DNA from: Chitinophagaceae bacterium
Lineage (GTDB): Bacteria > Bacteroidota > Bacteroidia > Chitinophagales > Chitinophagaceae
DNA: 64,000 bases
Reading direction: 5' to 3'
NCBI GenBank assembly: GCA_947446645.1
Contig: CANFHA010000012.1
Span: 62,001 to 126,000 of the forward strand
Part shown: positions 10,502 to 31,209 of the stretch, piece by piece
How the letters are laid out: every line of letters starts with the position of its first letter
How positions within the stretch are numbered: the stretch's first letter is position 1
Translations under genes and position numbers: made by a program
Notes under the pieces: model-generated
Told to the model about the DNA's origin: nothing
The model's database searches: none
Seen by the model: only the letters and a program-made list of their open reading frames with translations

Positions 10502-10531
10502 TTTCTACAGGCTATGTCCCGTGTACTTTTG
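10502..10531 (+). promoter_or_regulatory. Candidate promoter of the cyclase pair
   Basis: TACTTTTG (10524-10531) matches TAnnTTTG exactly, with TTTC (10502-10505) 18 nt upstream in place of TTTG. It overlaps the first codons of the longest open frame, which argues that translation starts at the later ATG (10560). Confidence 0.5.
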
Positions 10532-10559
10532 TCCGGCCCCTTATAGGAACGCTGCTTCT

Positions 10560-12680
10560 ATGACGAGACGAGTGCTGAAATTTCTTTTACTTGCCCTGCT
10601 GCCAGCACTCGGGTGGGGCTCTTGCGCCGCACAATCTCATCTTGATTCCCTGCGAGTGGATTCGCTTGTGACCCAACTTACTGCAAACAGCATGGATATA
10701 GGAGTGACCTTGCTCATAGACTTATCCCTGGCATATAAAGCGGTGGACCCGGGCAAGGGCGTGAAGTACGGGCAGGATGCCCTGGCGCTGGCTGAAACCA
10801 CAAAGGATAAACCAAATATGGCAAATGCAAGCAGGGCTATAGGGACGAACTTCCAGGCCCTGTCTGACCCTACACAGGCACTGAATTATTTTCTCAAGGC
10901 GTTGGCATTGAGCCCGGCTGAGGATACGGCAAAAGTGAAACTGCTGGGTGACATATCTTACTTGTTCAATGCTATGGACCCTGCCGCCGGTATAAAGTAT
11001 GGCACACAGGAACTTGCACTGGCGCAAAAGCTAAGGTATAAACAGGGAATGGCAGACGCCTATGGCAAACTGGGTGTGAACAGCCTTTCGCTATCTGACT
11101 ACACCACTGCACTTGAATACCATTTTGCCGCGTTGAAAATAAACGAGGAGCTACAGGATAAAATGCACATAGCCGGCAACCTTGGCAATATAGGAAACAT
11201 CTATTCGAACCAGGGAGATTATGATAAGGCTCTGGAATATTATTTTAAGATCCTGAAAATATTTGAAGCGCAGAACTCCAAAGGAAATATAGCACTGACA
11301 ACAGGGAATATAGCAGGAATGTACGTGAATAAGGGCGACTATACCAGGGCGCTGGAATATAGCTTTAAGGCACTTAAGATGGACCAGGAACTGGGTAGGG
11401 AATTTGGTATAGCTACAAATATGTTTCACATAGCCAGCGTGTATACCAGTCAGCGAAATTACCAGACCGCGCTGGAGTACTATTTTAAGACGCTGGAAAT
11501 GTATGAGCGCCAGGGCGACAAGCATAGCGCCACGGTGACACTGGGAAATATAGGGGAGTGCTACCTGGCCATAGCCAGGGATACAGGCAGGGTGCCGGCA
11601 AGCAGCCTGATACCGGCAGGCAAATATGAAGTGCTCAAAAAGGCAACAGAATATACCAAAAGAGGAATAGCGCTTAGTAAAGAATTGGGCGACCTTGCAG
11701 ATCTGCAAGCGATGTCGCAAAATTTTTCTGATGAGCAGGCACTTTTAGGTGACTATGCGGGAGCGCTGGAAAGCTTTAAAATTTCTGAGGCGCTTAATGA
11801 TTCTCTTTTCGGGCAGGAAATAAAGGAGAAGATCATAAACCTGGATACGAAGCGGGAAATAGAGCTGAAAAACAAGCAGATAGAAATAGATAAGCTGGAC
11901 CTTACGAAAAAACACAGCGAAAGAAATTATTTTATTGCCGGTATAGCGCTGTTGCTGCTGGTGATACTGTTTATACTGCGGAATTACTACCTGCAAAAGC
12001 GATCGAACGAGCGGATATCAAAAGAAAAGCAGCGGAACGAGGAACTGCTGCTGAATATATTGCCGGCCGAGGTGGCAGATGAACTGAAGATTAACGGCAC
12101 GGCACAGGCAATGCACTTTGATAATGTAACTGTGATGTTTACAGACTTTGCAAGCTTTACCCAGGCAGGGGAGCGGATGCCGCCACAAGAGCTGGTAGAT
12201 GAGCTGCACGCCTGCTTCAAAGCATTTGACGAGATTATAACAAAGTACGGTATAGAGAAAATAAAGACGATCGGAGACTCCTACCTTGCTGTGTGCGGCA
12301 TGCCGGTGACGGATGCCCGGCACGCGGAGCATATAGTTGCCGCTGCCATAGAAATAAATGAATTTATGCTCAACCGGCGTGCGCAATTAAAAGACAAAAC
12401 CTTTGAGCTGAGAACAGGTATTCACAGCGGCAGCGTGGTGGCCGGTATAGTAGGGGTAAAGAAATTTGCCTACGATATATGGGGTGATACAGTAAACACG
12501 GCTGCCCGAATGGAGGCGCATGGCGGAAAAGGGAAGATCAATATATCGCAAATGACGTATGAACTTGTGAAGGGTAAATTCGATTGTGTGTACAGGGGTG
12601 AAATTGAGGCTAAGAATAAAGGGGTAATGAAGATGTATTTTGTAAGCGATAAAACAACGAAAGCTACCTTGAACGGATAA
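10560..12680 (+). CDS. TPR-containing membrane adenylate cyclase (class III)
   Basis: From the ATG at 10560 the product has 706 residues: a signal peptide (to about 26, ending CAAQS), several tetratricopeptide repeats (about 60-410, predicted periplasmic), a coiled-coil stretch, one transmembrane helix (IAGIALLLLVILFILRNYY, about 460-480) and a cytoplasmic class III cyclase domain. Catalytic residues are complete: metal Asp529 (FTDF) and Asp573 (GDSY), base-reading Lys569 and Asp639 (Lys/Asp pair, adenine), Asn646 and Arg650 (NTAARM). It should make cAMP in response to a periplasmic input. Its stop overlaps the next cyclase start (TAATG). Confidence 0.9.
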   Translation: MTRRVLKFLLLALLPALGWGSCAAQSHLDSLRVDSLVTQLTANSMDIGVTLLIDLSLAYKAVDPGKGVKYGQDALALAETTKDKPNMANASRAIGTNFQALSDPTQALNYFLKALALSPAEDTAKVKLLGDISYLFNAMDPAAGIKYGTQELALAQKLRYKQGMADAYGKLGVNSLSLSDYTTALEYHFAALKINEELQDKMHIAGNLGNIGNIYSNQGDYDKALEYYFKILKIFEAQNSKGNIALTTGNIAGMYVNKGDYTRALEYSFKALKMDQELGREFGIATNMFHIASVYTSQRNYQTALEYYFKTLEMYERQGDKHSATVTLGNIGECYLAIARDTGRVPASSLIPAGKYEVLKKATEYTKRGIALSKELGDLADLQAMSQNFSDEQALLGDYAGALESFKISEALNDSLFGQEIKEKIINLDTKREIELKNKQIEIDKLDLTKKHSERNYFIAGIALLLLVILFILRNYYLQKRSNERISKEKQRNEELLLNILPAEVADELKINGTAQAMHFDNVTVMFTDFASFTQAGERMPPQELVDELHACFKAFDEIITKYGIEKIKTIGDSYLAVCGMPVTDARHAEHIVAAAIEINEFMLNRRAQLKDKTFELRTGIHSGSVVAGIVGVKKFAYDIWGDTVNTAARMEAHGGKGKINISQMTYELVKGKFDCVYRGEIEAKNKGVMKMYFVSDKTTKATLNG

Positions 12681-13858
12681 TGAAAGCTGCCTGTATCATA
12701 TTATTATTGTTATTACCGCTTTCTGTTTTTGCCAGAAAGCAGGGGCCGGCGCGCATCGATTCCCTGGTGAATGAGCTTGCCTCGGGCTCATTTGCGAAAA
12801 CAAGTGATGGGCCGGAAAAAAAGGAAGACCTGCAGCTGACCATTGCATACCTGAAAGCCACAATAGACAGCAATGAAAAGGTGGGCAGTATTGAAAACAT
12901 CCGGAAATGGAGCGCGCTGCTCTCTGAAGCATACAGGCTGGCGGGAAAGCCCAAAGAAGCCTATGAATACTACAAGCTCTATAAGATAATGAAGGACTCG
13001 CTATCCAGCGCAACCAATAAACTGAAGTTAGCGACACTGGAGGCTGAGCGGAAGATCGCGCTACAAAACAAGCAGTTGGAGATCAACAGTCTCGAAGTTA
13101 GTAAAAAGCGGGACGAACGGATATTTTACATAGCGGGAATAGCGCTGCTGCTGCTGGTGATCGTGTTTATAATGCGCAACTACAAAACACAGAAAAACAG
13201 CAGTGAACTGCTCTCTGCAGAAATGAGCAGGAGCGATGACTTACTGCTGAATATATTGCCTGCGGGTGTAGCAGCGGAGCTAAAGGACAAAGGTGTATAC
13301 AAGGCCCGGCATTACGATGAGGGTACAGTATTCTTTACCGACTTTGTAAATTTCACCAAGGCCAGTGAGAAAATGGCGCCTCAGGATCTTATAGATGAGC
13401 TGCATACCTGCTTCAAAGCTTTTGATGAAATAGTGACCCGCCACAATATTGAGAAAATAAAAACGATCGGCGATGCTTATCTGGCTGTGGCCGGCATACC
13501 TGTGGCAGATGCATTGCATGCTGAGAATGCAGTGAGGGCCGCGCTGGAAATAAACACCTTTATGGCTGAGCGGCAGACACGGCTAAAGGAGAAAACCTTT
13601 GGTATAAGGATAGGTATACACAGCGGCAACCTAGTGGCCGGCATAGTAGGGGTTAAAAAATTTGCTTACGATATATGGGGTGATACGGTGAATACCGCAG
13701 CTCATATGGAAGAAAGAAGTGAAACGGGAAAGGTGAACATATCACAGGTTACTTACGAGCTGGTAAAAGATAAGTTTAACTGTGAGTATAGAGGTGAGAT
13801 AGAGGCAAAGAATAAAGGGCTCATGAACATGTACTTTGTTCTGTCTGAGAAAATCTAA
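12680..13858 (+). CDS. Second adenylate-cyclase-like protein, transition-state Arg replaced by His
   Basis: 392 residues: signal peptide (1-19), a short helical region that looks like a reduced TPR module, a coiled coil, a transmembrane helix (IAGIALLLLVIVFIMRN) and a class III cyclase domain very like its upstream neighbour. Metal Asp221 and Asp265, Lys261, Asp331 and Asn338 are kept, but the position of the catalytic Arg is His342 (NTAAHM). It may therefore be weakly active alone or work as a partner of the upstream cyclase. The start codon overlaps the upstream stop by one base; the 3' end overlaps the convergent GT39 gene by 4 bp. Confidence 0.88.
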   Translation: MKAACIILLLLLPLSVFARKQGPARIDSLVNELASGSFAKTSDGPEKKEDLQLTIAYLKATIDSNEKVGSIENIRKWSALLSEAYRLAGKPKEAYEYYKLYKIMKDSLSSATNKLKLATLEAERKIALQNKQLEINSLEVSKKRDERIFYIAGIALLLLVIVFIMRNYKTQKNSSELLSAEMSRSDDLLLNILPAGVAAELKDKGVYKARHYDEGTVFFTDFVNFTKASEKMAPQDLIDELHTCFKAFDEIVTRHNIEKIKTIGDAYLAVAGIPVADALHAENAVRAALEINTFMAERQTRLKEKTFGIRIGIHSGNLVAGIVGVKKFAYDIWGDTVNTAAHMEERSETGKVNISQVTYELVKDKFNCEYRGEIEAKNKGLMNMYFVLSEKI

Positions 13859-20196: not shown

Positions 20197-23100
20197 ATGA
20201 ATCCCAGCATAGTACTTGGAGCACACAGACCTGATCTTTTGCATGAAGAAACGCTTGCAGATATTTTCCGTGCTTCTGCACAGAAGTTTTCAGCAAATAC
20301 GGCAATTATTTTCGGGGACAAGTCGGTAACTTATGCTGAGTTGGACAGGTGGAGTGATGCGATGGCCGATCATTTGTACCAGAATGGAATAAGGCCGGGC
20401 GACCCGGTGGGGATCTGGTGGCCGCGGGGCCTTGAACTTCATGTAGCTGTATTAGGGATTGTGAAGGCCGGAGGATCATATGTGCCACTGGATCAGGAAA
20501 TGCCTGCAGAACGAGTGGAGACCGTATTGAATGAAGTAGGCGCAAAAGGGTATATAAGCCAGGGGAAAATAAATGTAAGCTGTCCTCTATTTTCCGTGGT
20601 GCCGCAGCCTACGCCGCAGGCGGTTATACCGAGGACACAGGGTGCCCAGCCAGACAATTGGGCGTATGTGCTGTACACATCAGGCAGTACAGGGAAGCCT
20701 AAAGGCATACCAATAGCCCACAGGCAAATATGCCACTTTGTGCGTGCGGAACAGACGGTGCTTGAGGTGCAAAGCACAGACCGAGTTTACCAGGGGTTTT
20801 CTATATCGTTCGATATGTGGTGCGAGGAGGTATGGATAAGCTACCTGGCTGGTGCTACGCTTTGGGTAGCCGATGCAGCTACCGCAAAATCAATTGATGA
20901 ACTTACAGATATTTTAAGACGGCAGCGTATCACTGTGCTGCACGCAGTGCCTAGTTTGCTTGCGGTGATGGAGGATGATATTTCTTCTTCACTACGCATA
21001 GTGAACGCGGGTGGGGAGGCATGCACTACCCAGGTGCTCGCACGATGGTCCATACCATCGCGCAAATTCTATAATAGTTACGGGCCTACAGAAACCACAG
21101 TAACCGCTACAATAACTGCACTAAAGCCAGGAGACCCTATTACCATAGGCATTCCATTGCCCAATTACAATCTTGCAGTTGTAGATGAGCAAATGAATAT
21201 ACTGCCAGTAGGGGAACGTGGTGAACTTGTAGTAACCGGAGCTGGCGTATGTAAAGGGTATATAAACCTACCGGAGCTTACTGCTCAGAAATTTGTTGCA
21301 AAGCCTGACGGCATGGCGGCCCTGCCGGGTGACATGGTTTACCGTACAGGCGATGCTGCGGTGATAAATCCGGACGGAAGCATAGATTTTCAGGGTCGCT
21401 TTGACGACCAGGTGAAACTTCGCGGCTACCGTATAGAACTGGGGGAGATAGAGACCCGCCTCGGCAGCCTTACTGACATTACCGCCGCTGCTGTGGTGGT
21501 GAAGAAAGATGCAAATGGTCAGGACCACCTGGCTGGCTATGTAGTGTGCGACGACCCCATAACCATGAACCAGCAGCACATACGGGAAGAACTGGCCAAG
21601 GTGCTTCCCGCTTACATGGTGCCAAGCGTAATAATGCAGCTGATAGAGATGCCCCGGCTGCCCAGCGGTAAAATAAACCGCAAGGCGCTGCCTATGCCGG
21701 CCATGCTGATGGAGAATGCCGCGGCAATAACAAACGAAATAATAGATCTGGATGCTCCGGTAGAGGAACGTGTAATAGCAGCGCTGAAGAAATTTTTCCC
21801 GAACAGGAATATTGACCTCTCACAGGATTTTTTCACAGATCTCGGTGGCCACTCATTGCTTGCTGCGGCATTCGTGTCCCGGTTGCGGCGCGAAGCCAAC
21901 ATACCGCAGGCCGCTCTGAAAGACATTTATCTTATTCGCCCGCTCAATAAGCTGGTAGAACACTGGAAGCTGAAGCCTACAGAAGAAATAAAAGCCAAGA
22001 AAGTATTTAACGAAATACCTAAAAAGCGTTTCCTGCTGTGTGGCATTGCGCAGACTTTTGCGTTGCTCATGGTTTACGGGCTTTTCGCTGTTCAGATATT
22101 TTTCCCATATCTCGGTTATTATTATGTAGCCGAAGAAACCAAGAATACAGCGTATGCGGTTACTACCGCATTGTGTTTGTTCTGCTTCATACCTCCTTTG
22201 TTTGCTGCGCTTACCATAGGTGTAAAATGGCTGGTTATTGGTAAGATGAAGGAAGGCGATTATCCGCTTTGGGGCAGCTATTATTTCAGGTGGTGGTTTG
22301 TAAAGACCATGCAGCGCCTGCTGCCGGCGCAGTTTCTGAATGGTACGCCTCTTTATGCAGGCTACCTGAGCCGCATGGGTGTAAAGGTAGCTAAAGACGT
22401 GCAGCTGGGCGCTGTAGTTATTGGCGCAGAAGACCTGGTGACAATCGGCAGTGATGTAAGCATCAGCTCGCGTGTTACCATCAACAATGCCTATGTGGAA
22501 GATGGCTTGCTGAAACTTAGGCGGGTGACGCTTGGCGATCACGCCTATATTGGCAGTGGCGCCATAATAGCCGGCGGGTCAACAGTGGAAGCATGGGGTG
22601 AGCTGCAGGATCTCAGCTATCTGCAGGAGGGTAAAACCATAAAGAGCGGTGAAGTATGGCAGGGCAGCCCAGCGGCACTCAAGGAAACCAAGGCAATAGA
22701 AGATCTCCCGCAGCCACTATATGTTTCACCTGGAAAACGGCGCAGATATACACTCATATTTACGCTTACGCTGCTTATTTTCCCATTTGTTATCCTGTTG
22801 CCGCTACTGCCCACTATCATCATTATTCACAACATCGATAATTCTACGCCCGACTACGATTTTAGTTACCTCGTTATTACTCCATCGCTGGCGCTAACGT
22901 ATATTATTGTGTTTGCTGTAGTAACCGTAATTCTTACCCGGCTGCTGCAGTGGGGTATAAAGCCGGGCAAATATCCTATATACAGCATGTTTTACGTGCG
23001 CAAGTGGTTTGCTGACCAGCTGATGTCTTTATCGCTTATCGTGTTGCATCCTATCTATGCCACGGTCTACATCTCTCTGCTGTTTCGTGCGCTGGGTGCC

Positions 23101-24138
23101 AAGGTGGGTAAGAATACGGAGATATCAACAGCAAGCAGTGTTACTCATCCCCTGCTGGAACTGGGCAAGGGTGCATTCATAGCAGATGCTGTAACCCTTG
23201 GGGAGTCGGACGTAAGAGGCCAGCAACTGATTCTGGATAAGACAATAATTGGCAACAACAGCTTTGTGGGCAATAGCGCACTGATACCGCAGGGCTATAA
23301 GCTTCCGGGTCGCATGCTGATAGGTGTGTTGTCAGTGCCGCCAAGTAAGGAGCAACTGGAAAGTGCAACTGCAAAAGACTGGTTTGGCTCGCCTTCTATA
23401 GCGCTGCCGCGCCGGCAGGCCAGTCGCACATTTGCGGCCGAGCTTACTTCGCGACCATCTGCCGGAAGAATACTCTCGCGCAGCGTGGTTGAGTTTATAC
23501 GTATACTTATACCCGAGACCGTTATACTTATCTGTAGTATCCTGTTCATTGCCTATGCGCACGATCTGTTAGTTGGCCAGCCGTGGTGGAAGGTGGTGAT
23601 GCAGCTGCCGCTATACTACCTGTTTTTCATGGGGCTGCCTGCCTTTATAGTTACTGCAGCCCTTAAGTGGCTCACCATAGGTGTATATAAGCCCGATCAG
23701 AAGCCGATGTGGACATCGAAGGTGTGGCGCAGCGAAGCCATTACATCCACCTACGAAGCGCTCTCTGTACCCTTTCTGCTGGATTTTATGCGGGGCACGC
23801 CCTGGTTGCCTGTAATGCTGCGTATGCTGGGCTTAAAAACAGGCAAGCGGGTATGGATGAATACAACAGATGTCACCGAGTACGATATGGTGCACATAGG
23901 CGATGATACCGCACTGAACGAAGACTGTGGCCCGCAGACCCACCTGTTTGAGGATCGTGTTATGAAAGTAGGACCGATAAAAATAGGCAAGCGTTGCAGC
24001 ATAGGGGCAGGCACCATTATTCTCTACGACAGTGAGATAGGCGATAATGTGAATGTAGATCCGTTATCGCTGGTAATGAAGGGTGAAAACCTGCAGCCTG
24101 ATAGTAATTGGGGTGGTAGCCCGGTGCGGCCGGCGTAA
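20197..24138 (+). CDS. Pls/PosA-family single-module non-ribosomal peptide synthetase
   Basis: 1313 residues. Adenylation domain (about 20-505) with core motifs YTSGSTGKPKG (159), YNSYGPTETT (292), YRTGD (382), GRFDDQVKLRGYRIELGEIE (400) and LPSGKINRK (488); carrier domain with phosphopantetheine Ser near 553 (LGGHSLLAA); then a membrane part of three units, each a pair of helices (about 612/652, 851/891, 1103/1134) followed by a left-handed beta-helix-like segment (about 729, 967, 1212). No ordinary condensation or thioesterase domain. This is the epsilon-poly-lysine synthetase (Pls) architecture, expected to make short homopolymers. Pocket residues read by eye (D-M-E-H-V-A-S-V-T-K) suggest a basic amino acid. 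A near -7 box (TACTTTTC) is at 20153. Confidence 0.9.
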   Translation: MNPSIVLGAHRPDLLHEETLADIFRASAQKFSANTAIIFGDKSVTYAELDRWSDAMADHLYQNGIRPGDPVGIWWPRGLELHVAVLGIVKAGGSYVPLDQEMPAERVETVLNEVGAKGYISQGKINVSCPLFSVVPQPTPQAVIPRTQGAQPDNWAYVLYTSGSTGKPKGIPIAHRQICHFVRAEQTVLEVQSTDRVYQGFSISFDMWCEEVWISYLAGATLWVADAATAKSIDELTDILRRQRITVLHAVPSLLAVMEDDISSSLRIVNAGGEACTTQVLARWSIPSRKFYNSYGPTETTVTATITALKPGDPITIGIPLPNYNLAVVDEQMNILPVGERGELVVTGAGVCKGYINLPELTAQKFVAKPDGMAALPGDMVYRTGDAAVINPDGSIDFQGRFDDQVKLRGYRIELGEIETRLGSLTDITAAAVVVKKDANGQDHLAGYVVCDDPITMNQQHIREELAKVLPAYMVPSVIMQLIEMPRLPSGKINRKALPMPAMLMENAAAITNEIIDLDAPVEERVIAALKKFFPNRNIDLSQDFFTDLGGHSLLAAAFVSRLRREANIPQAALKDIYLIRPLNKLVEHWKLKPTEEIKAKKVFNEIPKKRFLLCGIAQTFALLMVYGLFAVQIFFPYLGYYYVAEETKNTAYAVTTALCLFCFIPPLFAALTIGVKWLVIGKMKEGDYPLWGSYYFRWWFVKTMQRLLPAQFLNGTPLYAGYLSRMGVKVAKDVQLGAVVIGAEDLVTIGSDVSISSRVTINNAYVEDGLLKLRRVTLGDHAYIGSGAIIAGGSTVEAWGELQDLSYLQEGKTIKSGEVWQGSPAALKETKAIEDLPQPLYVSPGKRRRYTLIFTLTLLIFPFVILLPLLPTIIIIHNIDNSTPDYDFSYLVITPSLALTYIIVFAVVTVILTRLLQWGIKPGKYPIYSMFYVRKWFADQLMSLSLIVLHPIYATVYISLLFRALGAKVGKNTEISTASSVTHPLLELGKGAFIADAVTLGESDVRGQQLILDKTIIGNNSFVGNSALIPQGYKLPGRMLIGVLSVPPSKEQLESATAKDWFGSPSIALPRRQASRTFAAELTSRPSAGRILSRSVVEFIRILIPETVILICSILFIAYAHDLLVGQPWWKVVMQLPLYYLFFMGLPAFIVTAALKWLTIGVYKPDQKPMWTSKVWRSEAITSTYEALSVPFLLDFMRGTPWLPVMLRMLGLKTGKRVWMNTTDVTEYDMVHIGDDTALNEDCGPQTHLFEDRVMKVGPIKIGKRCSIGAGTIILYDSEIGDNVNVDPLSLVMKGENLQPDSNWGGSPVRPA

Positions 24139-29652: not shown

Positions 29653-31209
29653 TTATACCGAAACGGAATGTTTCAGGTTTTTTTTTTCAAGGTACGACTC
29701 CCAGTCTGCCAGCTGTGCGCCTTTGAGCACACGGGGAAATTTGCTCATCGCTCCTTCCTTGCCTTTTGCCCGCAGGTAATCTATAAATGCGCTGCCGGGT
29801 AGCACTTCCACAAGTATCTCTTTCAGTGCTGATGTGCGTTCCACTTCATAGTCATCGTTAAGCTTACAAAGTGTTTCATCCAGCAGCGCCTTTAGTTTGT
29901 CAGTATCCAGGTTTTCATTGTCGCAGCCTATGTACCACTGGTGTGCAAACAAGCCATTATGTTTAAACCCTGCCACGGCAAACTCGCGGATAGTGATGTT
30001 CATTTTCTTTGAAACAGTCTCTATCGCTTTGTTCATATTGTCTACCGACATATGCTCTCCGCACAGGCTAAGGAACTGCTTGGTGCGGCCCACTATAGCT
30101 ATTTCGTGCTCCACTGCATTGGTAAACCGTATTACGTCGCCTATCAGGTAGCGCCATGCCCCTGCGCAGGTACTCAGCAGCACGGCGTACTCTACGCCTT
30201 CCTTTACTTCATGTACTTTGTATATCTCGGGGTCGGCTTTAGGATTTCCCTCTTCGTCAAAGTTGTTCTGAGTAAAAGGTATGAATTCAAAGAAGATACC
30301 TGCATTCAGAACCAGCTTTATACCTGCATTCGGTTTGGCCTGGAACCCGAATGAGCCTTCAGAGGCCATGTATGTCTCAATAAAATTCACATGCTTGTTA
30401 CCCCACAGATTCTTGAAACTTTCCCGGTAGGGCTCTATAGATACGCCCCCATGTATATATACACTTAGGTTGGGCCATATTTCATGTATGTTCTTTACGC
30501 CATGGTGCTTTATTACCCGCTCCAGCACTATCTGTACCCATGCCGGTACCCCGCATATGGTGCCTACGTCCCACTGGTCAGCTTTTTCTACAATTAGCTT
30601 TATGCGGTCTTCCCACTTGGGGCGCTTCGAGATGCGCTTGCCGGGTTTGTAAAGCAGTGAAGACATCCACCTGGGCATATTTTTGGCGCTTATGCCGCTC
30701 ATATCGCCCTCATAGTACTCCCCTTTTTCAAACAGGGAGGTAGTGCCGCCCAGCATCAGGATACCTTTTTCAAAAGCTATAGGCTGTATATCAAAATTAG
30801 CCATACTATACAGCTGCTTAAAACCTACCTTTTTGATAGATTTTATCATATCCTGTGTTACAGGTATATGTTTGCTTGCAGCATCTGAGGTGCCCGAGCT
30901 AAGCGCGAAGTATTTAACTTTCCCCGGCCAGCTTACATTTTCCTCGCCTTTTAGGCAGCGATGCCACCACTGGTCGTGCATATCGGTATAGGTATGCACG
31001 GGTACACGCTCATGAAAGGCTTTTAAAAAATCTATTTCTTTGCTAAGTATATCAGCAAATCCGTAATGTTTGCCGAAAGAAGTGTATTGTCCGCGCTCCA
31101 AAAGCTGGCGTAGCACGTGTCGCTGGTATGTTTGCGGTGTTGCTACCGGCAGATTGAATTGTTTCCGAAGTTGTAATGAACGAGATATCAGATTCCCTAA
31201 CAATGCCAT
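29653..31209 (-). CDS. GH3-family acyl-adenylate-forming protein
   Basis: 518 residues resembling plant GH3 auxin-conjugating enzymes and their bacterial relatives. The ATP-binding motif is FALSSGTSDAASKHIP; further conserved blocks are TYMASEGSFGFQ and LLSTCAGAWRYLIGDVIRF, as in the ANL-type GH3 fold. Enzymes of the family adenylate a carboxylic acid and join it to an amino acid or another nucleophile; the bacterial substrate is unknown. No carrier domain. It is followed on the same strand by the YdfG-like SDR, 94 nt away. Confidence 0.88.
   Translation of the reverse strand: MALLGNLISRSLQLRKQFNLPVATPQTYQRHVLRQLLERGQYTSFGKHYGFADILSKEIDFLKAFHERVPVHTYTDMHDQWWHRCLKGEENVSWPGKVKYFALSSGTSDAASKHIPVTQDMIKSIKKVGFKQLYSMANFDIQPIAFEKGILMLGGTTSLFEKGEYYEGDMSGISAKNMPRWMSSLLYKPGKRISKRPKWEDRIKLIVEKADQWDVGTICGVPAWVQIVLERVIKHHGVKNIHEIWPNLSVYIHGGVSIEPYRESFKNLWGNKHVNFIETYMASEGSFGFQAKPNAGIKLVLNAGIFFEFIPFTQNNFDEEGNPKADPEIYKVHEVKEGVEYAVLLSTCAGAWRYLIGDVIRFTNAVEHEIAIVGRTKQFLSLCGEHMSVDNMNKAIETVSKKMNITIREFAVAGFKHNGLFAHQWYIGCDNENLDTDKLKALLDETLCKLNDDYEVERTSALKEILVEVLPGSAFIDYLRAKGKEGAMSKFPRVLKGAQLADWESYLEKKNLKHSVSV

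Follow-up and report, generated by a model that had tools for sequence, protein, structure and literature searches.

What does the solitary synthetase gene at this locus join into a chain, and does its product depend on partner genes? The locus lies in a 64,000-nucleotide stretch from a Chitinophagaceae bacterium (assembly GCA_947446645.1, contig CANFHA010000012.1, positions 62,001 to 126,000), hereafter the window, in which an initial annotation made from the letters had recognized a synthetase of the Pls/PosA type with a pocket suggestive of lysine, ornithine or a similar diamino acid. We consider it probable that the enzyme is a membrane-bound, single-module iterative synthetase, with L-ornithine as its likely substrate and a short delta-linked poly- or oligo-L-ornithine as its product. 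The gene is organized as follows:

20197..24138, + strand: Pls/PosA-family synthetase gene, 1313 amino acids, an uninterrupted open reading frame (ORF) with an ATG start
20266..21690, + strand: adenylation domain, residues 24-498
20812..21105, + strand: substrate pocket D206, M207, E210, H249, N270, G272, S294, V302 and T303, from alignment to the PosA crystal sequence; the tenth residue, K492, lies further on
21799..21903, + strand: carrier (PP-binding) domain by Pfam PP-binding, with the phosphopantetheine serine, Ser553, at 21853-21855
22021..22239, + strand: membrane helix pair 1 of the C-terminal domain, residues 609-681, from the predicted model and secondary structure
22381..22689, + strand: beta-helix unit 1, about residues 729-831, predicted model
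22729..22947, + strand: membrane helix pair 2, residues 845-917, its first helix broken in two, predicted model
23101..23385, + strand: beta-helix unit 2, about residues 969-1063, predicted model
23461..23679, + strand: membrane helix pair 3, residues 1089-1161, predicted model
23836..24117, + strand: beta-helix unit 3, about residues 1214-1307, containing His1249 (23941-23943), predicted model

The gene is confirmed as encoding a Pls/PosA-family synthetase with one adenylation-carrier module, and it is a well-supported addition to this already known family. The TIGR02353 profile ("Pls/PosA family non-ribosomal peptide synthetase", NCBIfam), which had been named beforehand as a check, matches residues 618-1310 over model positions 2-695 of 695 and scores 661 bits (cut-off 423.1), far beyond chance, and the NCBIfam adenylation model TIGR01733 matches residues 45-433 with 391 bits (cut-off 317.4). 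Pfam recovers AMP-binding (24-355), AMP-binding_C (417-492), PP-binding (535-569) and Hexapep (1261-1287), while a match to a Pfam beta-helix family scores under its cut-off; as the initial annotation held, no condensation or thioesterase family is found in the protein in a Pfam search at E <= 0.001. Ser553 is conserved in all 117 aligned rows. The structure model of residues 596-1313 (predicted local distance difference test, pLDDT, 85.9; predicted template modelling score, pTM, 0.88) has three long helix pairs, and after each of them comes a beta-helix region rich in strands; the input to each model was the window protein with 29 Bacteroidota relatives, out of 46 relatives prepared. The six predicted membrane helices, in three pairs that alternate with beta-helices, reproduce the Pls/PosA layout that had been proposed from the letters. 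They also agree with the published model of PosA, the delta-poly-L-ornithine synthetase of Acinetobacter baumannii, which has six helices and pseudo-threefold symmetry (PMC10522769, a report drawn on here and below in part).

The pocket points to ornithine. In the PosA register its ten positions read D-M-E-H-N-G-S-V-T-K in the window protein and D-M-E-H-N-G-T-V-S-K in PosA as published (PMC10522769): eight letters are identical, and both mismatches, at positions 7 and 9, are exchanges between serine and threonine. Among solved structures the pocket region best matches the PosA adenylation domain (154 bits), followed by Pls 7WEW (103) and then by ordinary NRPS domains (LgrA, 34 for the better of its domains). 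Most of the pocket letters initially proposed hold, including the acidic third one, which is glutamate (E210) in the alignment to the PosA crystal sequence, so the non-acidic residue that would have refuted the initial proposal does not occur; positions 5 and 6, previously given as V and A, are N270 and G272, the former pair (V269, A271) belonging to the PheA register. Asp and Glu at positions 1 and 3, which define the Pls/PosA pocket (PMC10522769), are present as D206 and E210 and fit the basic or diamino substrate that had been anticipated. The residues contacting the diamino substrate in PosA are Asp217, Met218, Glu221, Thr304 and Ser313 (PMC10522769), of which the first three have identical equivalents in the window protein and the last two have equivalents that retain the hydroxyl. 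Position 2 is read as a length gauge, with Phe in the diaminopropionate and diaminobutyrate enzymes, Met in PosA and Ala in the lysine enzyme; PosA favors L-ornithine over L-lysine more than 160-fold, and replacing its Met218 by Ala raises lysine use nearly tenfold (PMC10522769). Since the window protein has Met at this position, the gauge rule would make it an ornithine enzyme. The lysine-type code D-A-E-S-I-G-T-V-V-K, seen in the solved Pls and in three rows of Pls type, agrees with the window code at positions 1, 3, 6, 8 and 10 only, and the lysine-subgroup pattern (Ala2, D-A-E-S-I-G) is not matched by Met207, H249 and N270. Of the substrates first suggested, the diamino type is thus retained and ornithine is indicated by Met2 and by the PosA-like code as a whole, whereas a lysine-like one is not favored.

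Relatives carry the same kind of pocket. The exact PosA code is present in a congener (L004), and among the 48 complete Bacteroidota codes recovered by searches with the C-terminal domain (51 rows, three with incomplete codes) 47 start D-M-E-H and one is of the lysine type, the loci in this count being the best matches (20 of 24 over the cut-off, 6 of 6 in the phylum sample and the best 30 of 43 in the family). In a quick tree of 48 rows, 35 of the 36 Bacteroidota rows group with A. baumannii, Azospirillum and Rhizobium with a Shimodaira-Hasegawa-like approximate likelihood-ratio (SH-aLRT) support of 98, and this group stands separate from the Pls-type and diaminobutyrate-type rows; the annotated Pls row clusters with other D-A-E-S-I-G rows, away from the window protein. 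A tree with Pls and PosA had been proposed as a further check: as judged from these sequences it is clear solely in separating the window protein from Pls, and the grouping with PosA comes with long-branch warnings and leaves outside it a Sphingomonas row with the same type of code.

Several points weigh against the ornithine assignment. Both hydroxyl-bearing pocket residues differ from those of PosA (T to S and S to T), in which the T304A and S313A changes lower activity 33- and 183-fold, and no Ser/Thr exchange figures among the mutants in the part of the PosA report drawn on here (PMC10522769). PosA itself also uses D-ornithine, at about half of the L-ornithine kcat/KM, and lysine weakly (PMC10522769), and the window protein is only 38% identical to the A. 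baumannii copy bearing the published code. Our contig scan was partly seeded with the peptide DMWCEEVW, so the uniform D-M-E is partly by construction and the C-terminal-only count given above is the fairer one. The tree is a quick one with long-branch warnings, and the clade nearest PosA includes Azospirillum and Rhizobium codes of the form D-L-E-D-I-G, to which no substrate is assigned; outside that clade fall the Sphingomonas row (D-M-E-H-N-G-T-V-T-K) and one Bacteroidota row, L105.

Three divergent pockets were seen along the way. L105 (Bacteroidota genome G433, C1:2493524-2495572), 36% identical to the window protein, has the lysine-type pocket D-A-E-S-I-G-T-V-I-K and is by its sequence a candidate poly-lysine producer within Bacteroidota. 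L133 (family genome G518) reads D-M-E-H-K-G-T-V-T-K, the sole code with Lys at position 5 among the 48 complete ones, and L057 reads D-M-E-S-N-G-S-V-S-K, with Ser for His at position 4.

The synthetase is a maintained trait in the genus of the window and sporadic elsewhere. Of the 35 genomes of the genus, 32 carry it (24 of 25 when a completeness of 90% or more and a contamination of 5% or less are required), as against 43 of the 294 family genomes, in 21 of the 101 family genera, and 6 of the 395 genomes in the phylum sample, including the window's own. Many of these are incomplete metagenome-assembled genomes (MAGs), and the rows are not independent, as L001-L020 and L021-L100 may contain one species twice. 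Of the relatives that bear their own genus name, the closest belong to Flavipsychrobacter (L066, 82% identity; F. stenotrophus L040, 75%), and by these identities the genus is probably Flavipsychrobacter. Against three congeners the synthetase has 0.06-0.07 nonsynonymous (dN) and 2.3-3.4 synonymous (dS) substitutions per site; for a fourth dN is 0.14 and dS is not computable.

Whether the synthetase acts alone is best seen from its neighborhoods. We clustered five ORFs on each side, defined by length and overlap without a gene finder, across a maximum of 82 stretches, made up of 80 named loci plus one stretch from A. baumannii and the window itself, and two recurrent partners emerged, a GNAT acetyltransferase and a phosphopantetheinyl transferase (PPTase). 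The GNAT occurs in 22 loci, from Chryseobacterium, Chitinophaga, Niabella, Ferruginibacter, one Taibaiella and MAGs, always as the next downstream gene on the same strand; two examples were checked against Pfam PF00583. It adjoins the synthetase in 20 of the 65 loci where the synthetase is complete and the sequence runs on for 800 bases or more downstream of it. In the window's genome a single GNAT homologue lies on a different contig; its full-length identity with the Chryseobacterium copy is 46%, and it shares 54% with those of Chitinophaga. Across the family, where both searches covered an equal number of genomes (294) with the same handles where listed, the synthetase is found in 43, the GNAT in 21 and both in 18, of which seven have them adjacent and 11 unlinked; the GNAT stands without a synthetase in G470, G519 and G617. 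At the level of genera, the synthetase is found in nine of the 11 with a GNAT, compared with 21 of all 101. One-sided Fisher tests, which take genomes or genera as independent and ignore shared descent, give p = 2.5e-14 by genome and 6e-6 by genus, and 7.5e-9 for unlinked genomes and a weaker 0.007 for genera with unlinked copies only. In the phylum sample the GNAT occurs in two of 395 genomes (the window's own and G134), both with the synthetase. Within the genus, 30 of 35 genomes have both genes, two the synthetase only (G002, G005), two the GNAT only (G519, G711) and one neither (G014). Telling against the link, no GNAT is found at E <= 1e-12 in 25 of the 43 synthetase-positive family genomes or in four of the six in the phylum sample. 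These co-occurrence statistics are leads rather than proof.

By analogy, the likeliest role of the GNAT would be to acetylate the amine-rich product, as a cap or for self-protection. It is conceivable, though we hold it only tentatively, that the Bacteroidota ornithine-type synthetase and its own GNAT form a two-part system in which the latter caps or neutralizes the oligomer, and that the genus of the window, which would have separated the two genes yet kept both in 30 of 35 genomes, has it as a genus trait. Another reading, itself compatible with ornithine as the substrate, holds that the physiological product is no free polycation: together with the GNAT, the enzyme would make an ornithine oligomer that is N-acetylated or capped in some other way and that acts at the surface of the cell instead of serving as an antibiotic. 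The 22 adjacent loci and the 11 unlinked co-occurrences speak for it, as does the presence of the synthetase in 32 of 35 genus genomes, which is closer to a lifestyle trait than to a sporadic antibiotic; the GNAT is evidently not obligatory, given the synthetase-positive genomes in which none was found, and we regard this reading as rather unlikely.

Less likely still, another diamino or basic acid (D-ornithine, 2,4-diaminobutyrate, an N-modified ornithine or arginine) is activated and the matching homopolymer made. The acceptance of D-ornithine by PosA and the two differing letters, 7 and 9, are in keeping with this, and an unusual code is paired with an unusual preference elsewhere in the family, in the Bdellovibrionales enzyme with arginine (PMC10522769). 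The diaminobutyrate and diaminopropionate enzymes, however, have the Phe2 described above, which the window code lacks, and the code of L111, next to a diaminobutyrate transaminase gene, is D-F-E-C-L-S-A-V-T-K and unlike that of the window. That the enzyme is an epsilon-poly-L-lysine synthetase is very improbable: the family and Glu3 are shared and PosA has its weak lysine activity, but position 2 is Met and not Ala, just five code positions agree, PosA with its nearly identical code strongly prefers L-ornithine to L-lysine (PMC10522769), and the tree sets the window protein apart from the Pls-type rows.

If ornithine is the substrate, synthesis could proceed as follows. Activation and loading are the established, ordinary adenylation-carrier chemistry of the Pls/PosA family: the adenylation domain would convert ornithine to its AMP ester, the alpha-amine being held by Asp206, the delta-amine by Glu210, Ser294 and Thr303, and the length of the side chain being limited by Met207, as suggested by the PosA crystals and mutants. 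Ornithine would then be loaded onto the phosphopantetheine of Ser553, placed there by one of two putative PPTases encoded elsewhere in the genome. The C-terminal pseudo-threefold membrane and beta-helix domain would form each new bond between the side-chain amine of an ornithine and the thioester of the following one, cycle after cycle; the candidate general base is His1249, which is invariant and lies in the third unit. The product would leave the cell, and the partner GNAT may acetylate it. His1249 is present in all 111 rows with a letter at this position (six more are gapped) of an alignment of 117 that includes Actinomycetota and Pseudomonadota, and it is the only histidine among the C-terminal residues passing the invariance filter, the others being E1180, T1201, E1228 and Q1247 in unit 3, D997 and N1026 in unit 2 and R698 and W700 in unit 1. 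The surrounding Q-T-H-L-F-E-D-R motif is, by eye, missing from the matching stretches of units 1 and 2; another histidine, in unit 2, is invariant in 30 Bacteroidota rows and fails the wider filter. Because the base in beta-helix acyltransferases is a histidine located where subunits meet, we propose that each pseudo-trimer has a single active site, in which His1249 plays that role.

The second recurrent partner, the PPTase, lies near the synthetase in 22 loci, of which 12 have it immediately upstream in divergent orientation and ten have it one or two genes downstream; three examples were checked against Pfam ACPS. Among the 12 are the congeners L021 (9030-9680), L023 (9181-9828) and L036 (9178-9828), with synthetases about 90% identical to that of the window, which itself has no PPTase upstream: the gene has been lost, moved or gained within the genus. 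On Sphingomonas, Rhizobium and Shinella plasmids an annotated PPTase lies directly downstream. At the window locus neither PPTase nor GNAT adjoins the synthetase, in line with the initial annotation; its further suggestion of a self-contained product fits poorly with the adjoining PPTase or GNAT of many relatives and with the two PPTase matches (ORFs of 261 and 211 amino acids) and the GNAT homologue elsewhere in the window's genome. A SpoU methylase is a recurrent left neighbor, F. stenotrophus L040 included, yet in just 15 of 64 loci. Further off in the window, at 10521-13858 (+), are two adjoining genes, each with a C-terminal adenylate/guanylate cyclase catalytic domain and the first also bearing TPR repeats; both are matched near the synthetase in L021, L022, L024, L028 and L036. 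At 29653-31209 (-) lies a gene of the GH3 family, here in a Bacteroidota; the family takes its name from plant auxin-amido synthetases.

Delta-poly-ornithine has been shown for one enzyme, from Acinetobacter (PMC10522769). A Bacteroidota clade with a pocket of the PosA kind, which 32 of the 35 genomes in a single genus carry and which has cultured named carriers among its relatives (Chitinophaga, Mucilaginibacter, Flavipsychrobacter stenotrophus), offers non-clinical hosts for direct tests of product and role. Cultured relatives in which synthetase and GNAT are linked include Chitinophaga qingshengii and C. vietnamensis, and the GNAT association would give access, through the genes, to the question of how producers complete such polycations or withstand them. 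What is added here is the shift of the substrate from lysine to ornithine, the occurrence across the genus and, as a new candidate for a partner gene of a Pls/PosA synthetase, the GNAT.

Among known systems, streptothricin producers have N-acetyltransferases of the GNAT family that acetylate an oligo-diamino-acid product as self-protection, and these serve, by their described role, as a model for what the partner GNAT may do. Poly-diaminobutyrate and poly-diaminopropionate synthetases share family, architecture, Asp1 and Glu3 with the window enzyme and differ in the Phe at position 2; L111, the control row cited above, is the only one of this kind with a telling neighbor, its transaminase gene being annotated. 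Pls, the epsilon-poly-L-lysine synthetase of Streptomyces (PDB 7WEW), likewise shares family and architecture and, by direct alignment, pocket Asp1, Glu3, Gly6 and Val8, but has Ala2 for Met2 and S-I for H-N at positions 4-5. PosA (PDB 8G95-8G98) has the same domain order and C-terminal domain, eight of the ten pocket letters with the other two swapped between Ser and Thr, and, as far as the report was drawn on, likewise no evident co-transcribed biosynthetic gene (PMC10522769); the window enzyme differs from it in its 38% identity, its Bacteroidota host and the swaps at positions 7 and 9, and many of its relatives, unlike PosA, have a GNAT partner.

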